Part shown: in pieces, positions 1 through 21,242 of the stretch | Layout: each line of letters starts with the position of its first letter | Numbering within the stretch: the stretch's first letter is position 1 | Source of the DNA: a virus | Length of the DNA: 34,514 nt | Strand: one strand, 5' to 3' | IMG/VR virus record: IMGVR_UViG_3300046330_000173 | Coordinates: 1 to 34,514 of that record | Notes under the pieces: model-generated | Databases searched by the model: none | What the model was told of the DNA's origin: nothing | The model's input: the letters and a program-made list of their open reading frames with translations, nothing else | Position numbers and translations under genes: made by a program

Positions 1-861
1 AGCATCATCATAGTCTTTTTGTGCATTTGATTTTTCGAAAAGTTCATCCTCTTGGTCTTTCATTAGTATTTTTTTTGCTGCTAACGCTTTATTACCACCT
101 AACAATTCTGTTTGTTTTCTTTCACCGGCACCAATCGAACTAGCTATAACATATGCTAAAGCGCCAGCTAATACTCCACCGGCAAGCAAAATACCAGCAG
201 GTGATAACAAAAATGATAAAAACCAATTACCCGCAGTTGATAATAAACTCAATAATGGTTTTAAAATATTCTTCATATTCATCAGGTCAGAAAGTGAATC
301 AAAAATACTTTCAAAGAAACCTTTAGTCTGTTCTTTTTCTTGCACTAATGAAGCAGTACCACCAACCATACCCAAAGCTTTCAATAACTCTTTGTGACGT
401 TTATCGTCCTCAAGTTTTCTTTCTTCCGCAAAGTTATTTTCTTTTTGTCTACGTTTCTTATCTTCTTCAGAAGTTTTTTTCAATAATCCGACAATACTAA
501 TCAGCACACTTTTCATACCAGAACTTTCTTGTTCTGATGGTGGTAAAGCAGATATCTTTTTATTCTTAGGATTTACATATTTTACACGACCCGCAAAGTT
601 TTCAATATCTTGGCGACTACGACCAGTAATTTTACCCAACAGTGCAGGACCAAGACGAGAACCACCAGTAAGAACTTTAGCAATGTTTAGTGGATCAAAT
701 TTTTCTTTGATGCCTTTCATTTTTGCCTGAGTTTTTAATGAAATTGCTTTTTTAATACCAGAAAAAACTCCTGAACCTTGAATAATTTCATCAGACAACA
801 AGGATGATAGTGACTGTTTTCTTATTGATCGTGCTTTTTGGTAGGATAAATTGTTGTCCAT
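1..861 (-). CDS. Tape-measure-like tail protein, partial (3' end outside window)
   Basis: An open frame starts with ATG at 861-859 and runs off the left edge, giving at least 287 residues without a stop. Its start overlaps the stop of the upstream 531-aa gene in a TAATG junction, so the two are probably translationally coupled. Residues about 130-170 form a highly charged helix rich in K, E, D and R. Further on is a hydrophobic stretch of about 45 residues (around 200-245) rich in Leu, Ala, Gly and Ile that could span a membrane. A charged coiled coil plus a hydrophobic segment, just downstream of the gp26 chaperone frames, is what a tape-measure or DNA-injection protein would show. The family is not recognised by sequence. 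The helix aligns without gaps to a 41-residue helix in the upstream protein, suggesting tandem relatives. Function is inferred from position and composition only. Confidence 0.6.
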   Translation of the reverse strand, partial: MDNNLSYQKARSIRKQSLSSLLSDEIIQGSGVFSGIKKAISLKTQAKMKGIKEKFDPLNIAKVLTGGSRLGPALLGKITGRSRQDIENFAGRVKYVNPKNKKISALPPSEQESSGMKSVLISIVGLLKKTSEEDKKRRQKENNFAEERKLEDDKRHKELLKALGMVGGTASLVQEKEQTKGFFESIFDSLSDLMNMKNILKPLLSLLSTAGNWFLSFLLSPAGILLAGGVLAGALAYVIASSIGAGERKQTELLGGNKALAAKKILMKDQEDELFEKSNAQKDYDDA

Positions 862-2456
862 TACTTTGCCCTTTGTGCTCTTATCATAGCATTAGTGTCA
901 TCTTCTTTTTTGACATTCTTTTTTGTTGTATCTGATGAATTATCAATTGCTATATTGTTTGCTGTGTTTTTTTGTTGTTGTGCATTTAATGCTTTTTTGG
1001 CATCAGCAGATAATTTTGAACCCGAATCTATTGTTTGGCCAGAATTGTTGCCGCTTGGTATGCCCTGTGGTGTATTCGAACCAGATTTTAAATTTCTTTC
1101 TCGGTCAATATCAAGAGCTTTGCCAATTTCTTCTGGAGAATTATGTGCCTTGTTGCCACCAATTCCAGAATAAAGTGATTCGCCCCTTTTCAAATTTGTT
1201 TTTGGTAATTTTTTACCAATAGATCCTTGTTTTATATCATATGGCACTCCAATAGATGAGAACTCTTTGGCTAGTTCTAATATAGCAGCATCTCGCGTTA
1301 CATTATTTCGGCCATGCAAATAATCATCCACAAGTTTTCTTTTTCTTTTTATTATACCCTCTGAGAACAAATAGTCTTGAGTCTCTGGTGTCAAGTAAGT
1401 GGTTTTTGGATCTATTTTTAATTTTTTTACCAATTCCAACATAGTTGGTGGAATTATTTGATAACGGCCAATAGTGAACACTGTGGTTGGTCCACCAGGT
1501 TTTAGATTTGGATTACCTTCTGGAAATTGTTTAGTTTTAGCAGCGTGATTCAAATAATCTGATATTGTCCATTTCGAAAAATTAATAGGTTCATTAGCAG
1601 GAATCATTTTATTATTGATGGTTCCCCTATTATACGCATTATATTCATTACCATCAAAAGATTTACCAGCAGAAGATTTACTTTCAAATAAAGCAATTCT
1701 TTCTGCGGTGCTACGACTGGATGCCAATGCTGCGTTGCCAGCAGTAACCAATGCAGCACCCACAGCAACTTTGGCTGCGGTTGCTGCTGCTGATCCAGCA
1801 CCTGGTGCCACTGGTGGAATTACCGGTGCACCAGGAACTGCCGGCGGTGCTGGCGGCGCTGGTGGTTTTGGTGCTGGCGGCGCCGGTGGTTTTGCTGGAG
1901 TACCAGCTGGCGGTTTTGCTGGCGGTTTCGCTGGAGTACCACCAGGTGGTTTCGCTGGAGTGCCACCAGGTGGTTTCGCTGGAGTGCCACCAGGTGGTTT
2001 CGCTGGAGTGCCACCAGGTGGTTTCGCTGGAGTGCCACCAGTACCGCCAGGTTTTGCTGGAGTACCACCAGTACCACCAGGTTTTGCTGGAGTACCACCA
2101 GGTTTTGCTTGTGCTGGTGCTTGTTGTGCAGGTGTTTTTTGACCTGGTTTTGAACCTTTTGTTTTCTTACCAGTCAATGCTTGTATTATTTCTTGATTGC
2201 GATTATCTTTTTCTTTCTGTTCTTCTTTGAAGTAATTCTGTTTTTCTTGTATTTCAAGTTTTTTTGCAACTTCAGACTTGACCATCATTTTGTATATCGT
2301 ACCCAAAATTTCTGGATTACTTGAGTCACTCAAGTCAGTCATTGATGAATCGCCACCAAATAGTTTAGATACAAGTGAACGTGTTTTTTCAACACCACGA
2401 GATAATAGACTACTCGTGGTGCCTTTAGTTTGTTCAGATAATTCTGGTTTTGCCAT
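861..2456 (-). CDS. Tail protein with Pro-rich linker and lysozyme-like domain
   Basis: This 531-aa protein has four parts. Residues 1-100 are polar and helical (KSEVAKKLEIQEKQNYFKEE near 60-80). Residues 102-222 are a Pro/Ala/Lys/Gly linker with PAKPGGTGGT and PAKPPGGT repeats. An Ala-rich segment follows (222-246). Residues about 252-450 look like a lysozyme or transglycosylase fold: a candidate catalytic Glu in FESK (E258), YNAYNRG at 272-278, GRYQIIPPTM at 330-339, TQDYLF at 359-364 and GIGGNKAHN near 431. Such domains cut peptidoglycan, and here one would act from the virion during infection. The start ATG overlaps the stop of the gp26 -1 frame (TAATG) and the end overlaps the next start. 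Being directly after the chaperone frames suggests a tape-measure or hub-associated role. The lysozyme-like assignment is from motifs; exact GH family is uncertain. Confidence 0.75.
   Translation of the reverse strand: MAKPELSEQTKGTTSSLLSRGVEKTRSLVSKLFGGDSSMTDLSDSSNPEILGTIYKMMVKSEVAKKLEIQEKQNYFKEEQKEKDNRNQEIIQALTGKKTKGSKPGQKTPAQQAPAQAKPGGTPAKPGGTGGTPAKPGGTGGTPAKPPGGTPAKPPGGTPAKPPGGTPAKPPGGTPAKPPAKPPAGTPAKPPAPPAPKPPAPPAPPAVPGAPVIPPVAPGAGSAAATAAKVAVGAALVTAGNAALASSRSTAERIALFESKSSAGKSFDGNEYNAYNRGTINNKMIPANEPINFSKWTISDYLNHAAKTKQFPEGNPNLKPGGPTTVFTIGRYQIIPPTMLELVKKLKIDPKTTYLTPETQDYLFSEGIIKRKRKLVDDYLHGRNNVTRDAAILELAKEFSSIGVPYDIKQGSIGKKLPKTNLKRGESLYSGIGGNKAHNSPEEIGKALDIDRERNLKSGSNTPQGIPSGNNSGQTIDSGSKLSADAKKALNAQQQKNTANNIAIDNSSDTTKKNVKKEDDTNAMIRAQRAK
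1921..2100 (-). repeat. 24-bp and 30-bp coding tandem repeats in the Pro-rich linker
   Basis: About five near-identical 24-bp units (1921-2040) encode PAKPPGGT. Two adjoining 30-bp units (2041-2100) encode PAKPGGTGGT. All are in frame in the 531-aa gene. The units are nearly identical at DNA level, so copy number could change by slippage and lengthen or shorten the flexible linker before the lysozyme-like domain. Confidence 0.9.
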
Positions 2457-2644
2457 TAGGTTCTCATTCGTTCTTTGATTTTCTGATTTTCTTCCTCAAT
2501 ATACTGAACTAACATAGCAACATATACATCCCTTTCCCACGGCATCATATTGTCCAATTCAGTCAGACTATACTTGTGGTGTTGCATCATCGAGAAATTC
2601 GTCTTATAATGATTTCTCAGATTGTCGTGGCGAAAGGTTATACG
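2456..2644 (-). CDS. -1 frameshift extension of gp26 (tail-chaperone 'T' part; gp51-like position)
   Basis: Reading from the slippery site at 2650-2644 in the -1 frame gives 62 codons and then TAA at 2458-2456. The stop overlaps the start of the 531-aa gene (TAATG). The peptide starts RITFRHDNLRNHY, includes MMQHHKYSLTELDNMMPWE, and ends with a charged helix (EEENQKIKERMRT). The fusion would be 240 + 62 = 302 residues. There is an internal ATG at 2590, but no clear Shine-Dalgarno precedes it, so frameshifting is the more natural way to make this product. The arrangement matches the G/GT tail-assembly chaperone pairs found just before tape-measure genes. In T4 the small hub-assembly factor gp51 is associated with gp26 in function; equating this frame with gp51 is inference from position and was not supported by sequence recognition. 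Confidence 0.7.
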   Translation of the reverse strand, partial: RITFRHDNLRNHYKTNFSMMQHHKYSLTELDNMMPWERDVYVAMLVQYIEEENQKIKERMRT

Positions 2645-3363
2645 AAAAAACTTTCCAATCCCTCCACGTTAATCGTGTGATGGAATCCACATTTCTTGCA
2701 ATCCATTTCGACTGTTTCTTTTAACTTTGGTAAGTTATTAAAGAATGCTTCAACTTTACTGAATTGTTCTTGGTTCATAGTCTCAACAAAATCGACCATT
2801 TCTTCTACTGGTGTTTCTTTACCGTAGTAGAATTGTTCGCCATCGTAAATGTATTCGATACTCTGTGCAATCATATTAAATGTAATATCTGTAATATCAT
2901 CATACTTGATGGAATCTTTTACGATACCAAATTCTGGGTACTTCATTTTGACCATTAATTTATCAGTCAATTGAATCTCTGGTGAGATTGATTCATCCAT
3001 CTTTACTTTAATCTCTAACAGATTAATTTGTTTTTCCATGATATTACCACACTCAACATCATCAACCTCATTATTACAACGATAACGCGAATCGATTGTT
3101 TCTCCTACCGACTTTGCACGAAGGTTGATGAAGTAATATTCAATATCAATAATAGGTAATGTATCAATGTCCACATTTTCTGTTAGTGTACAGTTGTATA
3201 GAATATCATGAATAGACTGGTGAATGGAACCGGAATCACTTGACTCCATTGCCATTAACAGATTTCTCTGTTCTTTCACCAAGAATGGTCTAAATTTAAT
3301 TTTCTTTTTCGATACTGGTAGTTCTAGTTCATATGTTGGCACATCAATTTTTGGTAAAGCCAT
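2638..3363 (-). CDS. 26: gp26-family baseplate hub/tail assembly protein
   Basis: This 241-aa product looks like the T4 gp26 family (Pfam T4_baseplate). It has the LPKIDVPTYELELP-type start, a mostly helical body and four cysteines in two pairs (C96/C105 and C222/C225, the latter in DCKKCGFHH), which could bind zinc. In T4, gp26 is needed for hub assembly but is not prominent in the finished baseplate, which fits a chaperone role. CAGGAG lies 7 nt before the start at 3363. The gene follows the gp19-family gene and precedes the lysozyme-domain gene. Its last codons carry a perfect -1 slippery heptamer, so a 302-aa extended form is expected at low frequency. Family call is fairly firm; the chaperone role rests on gene order and the frameshift signal. 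Confidence 0.8.
   Translation of the reverse strand: MALPKIDVPTYELELPVSKKKIKFRPFLVKEQRNLLMAMESSDSGSIHQSIHDILYNCTLTENVDIDTLPIIDIEYYFINLRAKSVGETIDSRYRCNNEVDDVECGNIMEKQINLLEIKVKMDESISPEIQLTDKLMVKMKYPEFGIVKDSIKYDDITDITFNMIAQSIEYIYDGEQFYYGKETPVEEMVDFVETMNQEQFSKVEAFFNNLPKLKETVEMDCKKCGFHHTINVEGLESFFV
2644..2650 (-). promoter_or_regulatory. Slippery heptamer T_TTT_TTC for -1 ribosomal frameshifting
   Basis: On the minus strand the frame-0 codons AGT TTT TTC GTA TAA end the gp26 frame. The last T of AGT with TTT TTC makes X_XXY_YYZ (T_TTT_TTC), two codons before the frame-0 stop. Slipping by -1 after the second Phe codon opens the 62-codon frame downstream. Confidence 0.75.
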
Positions 3364-3389
3364 AATAACTCCTGAATTACATTAATTAA

Positions 3390-3908
3390 TCAAAATAACG
3401 GGAACGAAAAGTCTCTTTCCCAACGAGTATAAGCAAATGTTACAGATAATTTATGATAACTGTCGGTACTCCAATCCAAATCCAATTGGTTCATTGACAC
3501 TGGATATGCATCAATTAGTTTAACAGAGTATGCTGGACGGTTTGTTACATCATATTGTGTGATTATTATGTCAGCCACATAATCACTCTTATAACCAAAG
3601 TTGTTAGTATTTGTTGGATTGATACGTTCGAACCATCTATCAAAAAATACCTTTTGAGCCATATCGTCTGTAACCATAAACGTCAGATCAACATCACTGT
3701 ATGTCATCAAGTAAGGAAACTTTTCAATTGGACCATATGTTCTTTGTTCTGTGGTCGCCAATGTTTTACCTGGCAATTGAGCAGATTCGCAACGATACAA
3801 CAAACTATATGATCCACCAAATTTTGGATAAATCTGTACATCAAATCGACTCGGTCTTGATAAGTCGGTTTGGAAACTAGATTTAAAACTTTGTATGCTT
3901 CCTGGCAT
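3390..3908 (-). CDS. Tail tube family protein (gp19/gp54-like)
   Basis: This 172-aa protein resembles the T4 gp19 family of tail tube proteins: PSRFDVQIYPKF near residue 20, a middle GKTLATTEQRTYGPIEKFPY segment, DVDLTFMVTDDM, a FFDRWFERIN motif, and a C-terminal beta-rich YPVSMNQLDLDW region. T4 gp19 is of similar length (163 aa) and forms the hexameric tube; gp54 is a larger relative that starts tube growth on the baseplate. This copy sits with hub-assembly genes and no sheath gene is in view, so it may be a second, baseplate-proximal tube paralogue rather than the main tube protein. Its ATG abuts the upstream stop (TAAATG), with AGGAA a few bases before it. Confidence 0.75.
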   Translation of the reverse strand: MPGSIQSFKSSFQTDLSRPSRFDVQIYPKFGGSYSLLYRCESAQLPGKTLATTEQRTYGPIEKFPYLMTYSDVDLTFMVTDDMAQKVFFDRWFERINPTNTNNFGYKSDYVADIIITQYDVTNRPAYSVKLIDAYPVSMNQLDLDWSTDSYHKLSVTFAYTRWERDFSFPLF

Positions 3909-4544: not shown

Positions 4545-4557
4545 TATAGACCTAAGT

Positions 4558-4565
4558 GATAAATA
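4558..4565 (+). promoter_or_regulatory. Candidate late promoter GATAAATA before the NUMOD3 ORF
   Basis: GATAAATA overlaps the first in-frame ATG (4565) of the NUMOD3 ORF. If it is used, transcripts would begin near 4571 and translation would need a later start, such as the ATG at about 4595. Confidence 0.4.
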
Positions 4566-5020
4566 TGGGACACAAACAACAATTTCTACAAGATATTATG
4601 TATTCATTCACCATAACAACAAAAGAATTTGAAAGGATGAACAATTGTTTGTCTCTATTTTTAGACATAGACTGTCATAATATTGAATATAAAAACACTA
4701 CTTTTTATACAAAATCGTCAGGTGCGACAAAGGGCACAACAGGATACAAATACACCGAACAACAAAGAAAAAATATAAGCGATAGCCTAAAAGGAAAATC
4801 GAGTTCATGGTTAGGGAAAAAACATTCAGAAGAAACAAAAAATAAAATATCTGAACAAAAAAAAGGCAAAAAACTTTCTGAAGAAACTAAACAAAAAATG
4901 AAACTGGATGGTAGACAAGGACGTAAACACTCAGAAGAAACAAAAGAAAAAATGAAACAATTGGCATTAATACGAGAAGAATCTAAAAGGAATCTAAAAA
5001 ATCAAACTTTAGGTAATTGA
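4565..5020 (+). CDS. NUMOD3-only homing-endonuclease-like ORF (probable remnant)
   Basis: The protein is about 150 aa. From residue 60 it has three NUMOD3-type DNA-binding repeats with the core (W/R)xGKKHSEETKxK: GKKHSEETKNKISEQ, GKKLSEETKQKMK and GRKHSEETKEKMK. Such modules normally follow a GIY-YIG or HNH nuclease domain. The N-terminal 55 residues show neither, so this may be a nuclease-dead remnant or a module with an unrecognised catalytic part. It lies on the plus strand between two minus-strand genes, and its last 19 bp overlap the 3' end of gp4. A GTG at 4556 could also start the frame; no start has a convincing RBS. The NUMOD3 repeats resemble those of the GIY-YIG gene at 20496-21242. 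Low-complexity Lys/Glu codons set it apart from neighbours. Confidence 0.65.
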   Translation: MGHKQQFLQDIMYSFTITTKEFERMNNCLSLFLDIDCHNIEYKNTTFYTKSSGATKGTTGYKYTEQQRKNISDSLKGKSSSWLGKKHSEETKNKISEQKKGKKLSEETKQKMKLDGRQGRKHSEETKEKMKQLALIREESKRNLKNQTLGN

Positions 5021-20489: not shown

Positions 20490-20495
20490 ATTATG

Positions 20496-21242
20496 ATGGC
20501 ATGTATTTACAAAGTTACAAATAAATTAAATAAAAAAACTTATATTGGTTATAGTAAAAATTTTGCAAAAAGAAAAAGTGTACATAAAGAAAATGCATTA
20601 AAGAGAAATGTTGGTTTTGTTTTCTACCAAGCAATTCGTAAATACGGATGGGACAATTTTGAATGGGAAATAATATATGAAAGTTGGGATGATAAACATT
20701 GTTTAACTGTTATGGAACCATACTTTATCACAGAATATAATTCTTTTGGTGAAAATGGTTACAATATGACAAGAGGTGGTGAACGTGGACCAGACACAAT
20801 AAAAAGAAAACCACTCACTGAAGAACAAAAAAATAATATTAGTGTACAAACAAAAAAAAATGCTTTGCGTGGTGAAAACCATCCCATGTATGGAACCAAA
20901 GCGAATTCAAAATTTCTACAATCAGCAAAAACCTCCATGTTAGGTAAACAACATTCAGAAGAAACTAAAAAACAACAAAGTAATTCCCGAAAAGAATATC
21001 TGAAATTGAATAATGCAGGAATGTTAGGTAAGAAACATTCAACTGAAACCAAACAAAAAATGAAGTCTAAAAGGTTAGAAAAATGGGAATTATATAATGG
21101 TGAAACCAAACAAACCATATTAATAGATGATTTGATGGAATATAGTACAATAAATAATATAAATTACAAAACTGTTTACGCTTGGACATATCAAATAATT
21201 GATGGTAAACAAAGACTAAAAAAGGTAGAAAATGGCTCTTAA
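20496..21242 (+). CDS. Free-standing GIY-YIG homing endonuclease with NUMOD3 repeats
   Basis: Numbered from ATG 20493, the 249-aa protein has the GIY-YIG core: CIYKVTNKLNKKTYIGYS (4-21), a candidate catalytic Arg in FAKRKS (R27), Glu in VMEPYF (E75), and GYNMTRGGERGP (89-100). NUMOD3-type DNA-binding repeats follow: NHPMYGTKAN, MLGKQHSEETKKQ and MLGKKHSTETKQKMK. The C-terminal 45 residues (TILIDDLMEYSTINNINYKT) look like a helix-turn-helix-like NUMOD1 element. Of the start codons at 20493 and 20496, the second is 6 nt from AGGAG and is preferred. The last 11 bp overlap the start of the next gene, for which it supplies the AAAGG. It is not in an intron; it interrupts no gene and probably spreads by cutting the gp8-DUF4815 junction in related phages. 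Confidence 0.92.
   Translation: MACIYKVTNKLNKKTYIGYSKNFAKRKSVHKENALKRNVGFVFYQAIRKYGWDNFEWEIIYESWDDKHCLTVMEPYFITEYNSFGENGYNMTRGGERGPDTIKRKPLTEEQKNNISVQTKKNALRGENHPMYGTKANSKFLQSAKTSMLGKQHSEETKKQQSNSRKEYLKLNNAGMLGKKHSTETKQKMKSKRLEKWELYNGETKQTILIDDLMEYSTINNINYKTVYAWTYQIIDGKQRLKKVENGS
21149..21156 (+). promoter_or_regulatory. Possible late promoter inside the endonuclease gene
   Basis: AATAAATA occurs 76 bp before the start of the 2311-aa gene. It could give the large protein its own late transcript that does not depend on the endonuclease promoter. Such octamers also arise by chance in AT-rich DNA. Confidence 0.3.

Follow-up and report, generated by a model that had tools for sequence, protein, structure and literature searches.

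Tail-assembly chaperones of lambda and T4-like phages

One of the closest well-described systems is the G/GT chaperone pair of phage lambda, with which the locus studied here shares a -1 slip site towards the 3′ end of the chaperone gene, an extension that adds a second domain and a position among tail genes (reviewed in PMC5009743); unlike the lambda pair, the pair described here is known from sequence alone, and is without a demonstrated sequence relation to lambda G/T. In the same review, dating from 2016, T4 was still counted among the exceptions to G-T frameshifting (PMC5009743). Vladimirov, Gautam and Davidson (2022, Virology 566:9-15) later identified tail-assembly chaperones in T4-like phages; as summarised in one subsequent paper, some of these phages do not frameshift but carry a short gene together with a fusion gene (PMC10885494), and another credits the work with poly-T slip sequences in T4-like TAC-N genes (PMC12846349). 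As far as these accounts go, our locus resembles the TAC-N/TAC-NC pairs in its short and long chaperone products and its poly-T slip site, and differs in coming from an uncultured relative. The 2022 study reportedly describes frameshifting as apparently kept in several T4-like groups, the T4 group instead encoding the two forms as genes 26 and 51. In GenBank, gp26 and gp51 of Acinetobacter phage Kimel are already called 'tape measure protein assembly chaperone'.

The locus lies in a stretch of 34,514 nucleotides (IMG/VR record IMGVR_UViG_3300046330_000173; hereafter the window). We conclude that one gene of this uncultured T4-like phage very probably encodes both tail-assembly chaperones by -1 programmed frameshifting; the sequences show that the heptamer is kept, that the -1 frame evolves as protein and that T4 gp51 is homologous to and collinear with the predicted fusion, while slipping itself, its efficiency and the chaperone function are what we infer. 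The initial annotation had linked gp26/gp51 to the G/GT chaperones and stated that no report of frameshifting at gp26 was known. The link stands as biology but is not new, being preceded by the Kimel annotation and, as credited in later papers, by the 2022 study; the statement on earlier reports was wrong, given the poly-T slip sites attributed to that study (PMC12846349). On these accounts, chaperone frameshifting in T4-like phages was already published in 2022, and the window represents a new example, not a new phenomenon. To these accounts it adds a clade and, apparently, the observation of a conserved upstream Shine-Dalgarno-like core.

Slip site, open -1 frame and their conservation

The gp26 ORF of the window (Table 1) matched Pfam family PF12322 over residues 9-240 (E 5e-59; 200 bits, gathering cut-off 24.5) and PHROGs family phrog_150 (E 1e-61). 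By direct reading, its 3′ end is AGT TTT TTC GTA TAA, and the coordinates and phase initially given for the heptamer T_TTT_TTC were right. Re-reading also reproduced the 62 open codons of the -1 frame beyond Phe-Phe, the predicted fusion of 240 + 62 = 302 aa, and the overlap (TAATG) between the extension stop and the ATG of the next ORF (2456-2454). Two internal ATGs, at 2590 and 2587 (extension codons 20-21), are without a Shine-Dalgarno sequence (duplex energy +0.1 kcal/mol), as had been noted for the first of them.

Table 1. Positions of the gp26 junction features in the window (minus-strand features are read from the higher to the lower coordinate).
Feature	Position	Strand	Description
gp26 ORF (predicted short chaperone, TAC-N / gpG-like)	2638..3363	-	241 aa; PF12322 T4_baseplate, phrog_150
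Slippery heptamer T_TTT_TTC, in gp26 frame	2644..2650 (read 2650-2644)	-	direct reading
TAA stop of unshifted gp26	2638..2640	-	direct reading
-1 frame extension (putative TAC-C / T-like domain; gp51 family)	2456..2650	-	ends TAA 2458-2456
Shine-Dalgarno-like core GGAGG, candidate frameshift stimulator	2661..2665	-	10 nt upstream of heptamer
Next ORF, 531 aa, Pro-rich	861..2456	-	phrog_37890, function unknown

Taken alone, the window presents a modest argument against an accidental origin, in which heptamer and open frame would have arisen by chance or as by-products of the protein sequence. Under codon shuffling, T6N within the last 12 codons had P = 0.008, and the value rose to 0.08 when any X_XXY_YYZ heptamer was accepted there; 64 open codons had P = 0.005 under a first-order Markov model. 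Chance stands at about 0.005-0.008 per feature. The Phe-Phe pair is itself conserved as part of a protein motif, GL-x-x-FF, which explains part of the T-run but, judging by codon choice in relatives, not the fixed synonymous choices.

Relatives of gene 26 were gathered from IMG/VR by several queries and from annotated phage genomes, and 61 junctions with <85% nucleotide identity were taken as representatives. All 80 of the closest viral relatives (71-100% identity) kept T_TTT_TTC and an intact open -1 frame, contig ends aside, and an in-frame T_TTT_TTN was present in 244 of 245 related junctions (T_TTT_TTC in 228, T_TTT_TTT in 15 and T_TTT_TTG in one); the one junction without it belongs to a T4-type gp51 gene, whose extension needs no shift to be read in frame. 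The alignment of this junction in related phages, proposed initially as a check, thus found both heptamer and open frame kept. Every one of the 61 representatives carries the in-frame T_TTT_TTN. The first Phe codon is TTT in 61/61, compared with 69% of Phe codons in these genes (log10 P -11.9), and the codon before it ends in T in 61/61, whether coding Ser, Asn, Asp, Ala, His or Thr (log10 P -16.0), both values being based on codon usage and treating as independent representatives that are partly related. This conservation, with synonymous choices fixed, reaches phages at about 30% gp26 identity. The heptamer is also found in KVP40-type Vibrio phages, Pootjesviridae (AF3, OLIVR5), Sinorhizobium phage phiN3, Stenotrophomonas phage Moby (Menderavirus), Xanthomonas phage X1 and Methylophilales phage Melnitz. 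Together with the low dN/dS of the -1 frame (about 0.08; see below) and the 244/245 junctions, these observations led us to reject chance, which conservation excludes and to which we give practically no credence.

In Ackermannviridae (Kuja, SH19, Ds16CZ) and Vibrio phage K393, a gp51-like ORF was found in the -1 frame, with no canonical X_XXY_YYZ heptamer; these phages may use another slip site or coupled initiation. Their gp26-like genes (L265, L268, L269 and L270) end in CTT TTT CAA TAA, CTT TTC AAG TAA or ATT TTC ATT TAA, and Ds16CZ presents a TAATG overlap.

The main rival to a fusion is a separate small gp51 gene, expressed by re-initiation or translational coupling after gp26. Cyanophage and rhizobiophage records do annotate a separate gp51 of about 45-58 aa; in some cyanophages, Vibrio and Rhizobium phages, such as P-SSM2, S-PM2, phiN3 and V09, an ATG directly follows the gp26 stop or overlaps it; and the two ATGs of the window could serve as starts. 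However, among 16 representatives of the window's clade, the segment that runs from the gp26 stop to the first Met is under purifying selection equal to that on the rest (dN/dS 0.081 before and 0.087 after the first Met), with values of 1.8 and 0.97 for the other two frames; on these ratios, the -1 frame evolves as a protein even ahead of any possible start codon. Two representatives (L203 and L222) contain no ATG, GTG or TTG within the first 25 codons of the -1 frame and so have no usable start, seven of the 61 have no ATG, and 56 of the 61 have no start with a Shine-Dalgarno sequence. The gp26 stop is mobile: it may follow the heptamer at once or come up to 8 codons behind it, with the -1 frame kept. 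Selection ahead of the starts, missing starts and the mobile stop together argue for a frameshift product and against a separately initiated gene, which would also leave the invariant heptamer and the collinear T4 gp51 fusion unexplained. Independent initiation was rejected for the window's clade on the dN/dS before the first start and the start-less relatives, and a separate gp51 with no fusion is improbable overall. In P-SSM2, S-PM2, phiN3 and V09, the ATG beside the gp26 stop makes an extra short product possible, and independent or coupled initiation could there add to the fusion.

Relation to gp51 and to G/GT-type chaperones

The initial annotation had suggested searching the extension against gp51, and this gave a clear match: the window extension hit phrog_634 ('baseplate hub assembly catalyst', gp51) with E 2e-28 and aligned to the C-terminus of T4-type gp51 (residues 200-251; hhalign E 3.6e-10). 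Judged by these profiles, the extension is a member of the gp51 family. T4 gp26 and T4 gp51 both contain the PF12322 domain (residues 1-201 in gp51), and gp51 adds a C-terminal extension matching phrog_634. In profile comparison, window gp26 aligned to residues 6-201 of T4-type gp51 (E 1.2e-14), ending in Phe-Phe exactly where gp51 goes on, so that the joint coincides with the slip site; direct BLAST of T4 gp51 against window gp26 gave nothing significant, and the homology needed profiles to be seen. Since gp26 and the extension align end to end on it, T4 gp51 corresponds, by homology, to the 302-aa fusion with its two parts already in one frame, and T4 gp26 corresponds to the short form. Unlike this locus, T4 has two divergently transcribed genes, and its gp51 needs no frameshift; short and long forms almost certainly come from two paralogous genes in T4 and from one in this phage. 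Divergent in T4, the genes for the two forms are adjacent in Pectobacterium phage POP12, apparently adjacent in Enterobacter phage EC-F2, and a single gene in the relatives of the window. One T4-type gp51 homologue (L260, 2001-2746) contains 16 stops and is unreadable in one frame, reflecting either sequencing error or a disrupted gene.

Earlier comparative work reported cyanophage gp51 to be without the first ~200 residues (PMC3037559); the proposed frameshift would supply these residues, absent from annotated cyanophage gp51. A total of 609 phage records match the extension; where inspected, it is left unannotated, called a hypothetical protein or given as a gp51 gene of its own. The 'gp26' and 'gp51' of cyanophage-like genomes, usually annotated as two hub genes, would thus be one frameshifted chaperone gene, with T4 carrying the two-gene version of the same chaperone system.

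In the mechanism we propose, most ribosomes would stop at the unshifted TAA and release the 241-aa short form, which would correspond to T4 gp26 and to gpG of lambda. On T_TTT_TTC, with tRNA-Phe in both the P and the A site, a minority would move back by one base; the GGAGG element, which could pair with 16S rRNA, probably favours this step. The ribosomes that slip would read on in the -1 frame to make the 302-aa long form with a gp51-like C-terminal domain, which would correspond to T4 gp51 and to gpGT of lambda. If lambda is a guide, the short form would coat the tape measure protein and the long form would recruit tail tube subunits.

In common with G/GT-type pairs, the locus presents an in-frame slip site and a conserved C-terminal domain that ribosomes would reach only or mainly by frameshifting. 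Conservation, coding constraint and the collinear fusion in T4 gp51 lend strong support to the initial proposal of a G/GT-like pair made through a -1 frameshift where gp26 ends. The next gene was initially placed in tape-measure position; neither this ORF (531 aa) nor the one behind it (486 aa) matched a tape-measure family. The 486-aa ORF was read in a near-identical contig and contains hydrophobic stretches. An AlphaFold model of window gp26 (pLDDT 87.6) had as its top two matches among 350,542 PDB chains the HK97 tail assembly chaperone 2ob9, at weak scores (E 1.0-1.6, probability 0.51, 55-60 columns), and this predicted fold similarity may be taken as a hint of a relation to the HK97 chaperone. 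T4-type gp51, folded as a stand-in for the 302-aa fusion (pLDDT 91.8), gave no match in a fold search of the PDB; in BFVD (E < 0.001), its named matches were gp26/gp51-type baseplate hub proteins and the others were uncharacterised. A profile search of PDB sequences found nothing.

Candidate stimulators and neighbouring features

The GGAGG core upstream of the heptamer has a duplex energy of -9.8 kcal/mol in the window. Duplex energies of <= -6 kcal/mol upstream of the heptamer were found in 56% of the 61 representatives, compared with 8% of control sites in the same genes, and in 50 of the 61, 9-10 nt separate the end of the Shine-Dalgarno-like core from the heptamer. Of 47 Glu codons in the underlying E-G motif, 29 are GAG, compared with 27% elsewhere, suggesting that the nucleotide sequence, besides the protein, is selected; relatedness among the sequences inflates the figures for both the core and GAG.

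These data bear on transcriptional slippage, in which RNA polymerase rather than the ribosome would slip on the T-run. A T-run is found at every site and reaches T8 in two phages. However, 55 of the 61 representatives have exactly six T, the run always keeps the X_XXY_YYZ phase, and the Shine-Dalgarno-like core is a ribosomal signal. Runs of six T are short for polymerase slippage, and we consider this explanation very improbable, slipping by the ribosome remaining the preferred one.

The 10 nt between core and heptamer in the window fall inside the 9-14 nt spacing reported for -1 stimulators (PMC5009743). In this spacing (PMC5009743) and in its homopolymer heptamer, the site resembles E. coli dnaX, which differs in using A_AAA_AAG with a downstream stem-loop; the window is without a stem, while the P-SSM2 clade has one. 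Downstream RNA structure was absent in the window (z -0.5) and moderately enriched over the representatives (mean z -1.20, compared with -0.24 in gene-body controls), and in P-SSM2 an 11-bp stem starts 5 nt after the heptamer (z -3.7). Within the P-SSM2-like cyanophages (L081, L092-L171), we observed an 11-bp stem (AGTATGGCTCA/TGAGTCATACT) ~5 nt past the heptamer, where synonymous codons are unusually fixed. With 93% of cells paired and almost no covariation (2 cells), this P-SSM2-clade stem is only suggestive. It is about as probable as not that T4-like chaperone genes frameshift through a stimulated dnaX-like cassette, in which a conserved Shine-Dalgarno-like element precedes T_TTT_TTN by 9-10 nt and, in some clades such as the P-SSM2-like one, an 11-bp stem follows after 5 nt; some tailed phages, by comparison, are described as seemingly frameshifting without stimulatory signals (PMC5009743). 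If such a cassette exists, the gp26:gp51 ratio would be tuned by different stimulators in each lineage, and the upstream element offers a testable handle on how the chaperone ratio is set.

Elsewhere in the window, an in-frame A_AAA_AAG (21218-21224, + strand) lies near the end of a 249-aa ORF (20493-21242); the 2311-aa gene that overlaps it from 21232 onwards lies in a frame other than -1, and therefore a frameshift probably does not join the two. The ORF that follows the frameshift region contains an imperfect tandem repeat built around PGGTPAKP in a Pro/Ala-rich linker (2110-1880, - strand). An ORF at 4556-5020 (+ strand) presents repeated SEETK/KMK-type motifs (NUMOD3-like, named by eye) and probably represents part of a homing endonuclease gene that has inserted between tail genes; in one relative (L280), a separate GIY-YIG-like ORF, also named by eye, is located at 3230-3838.
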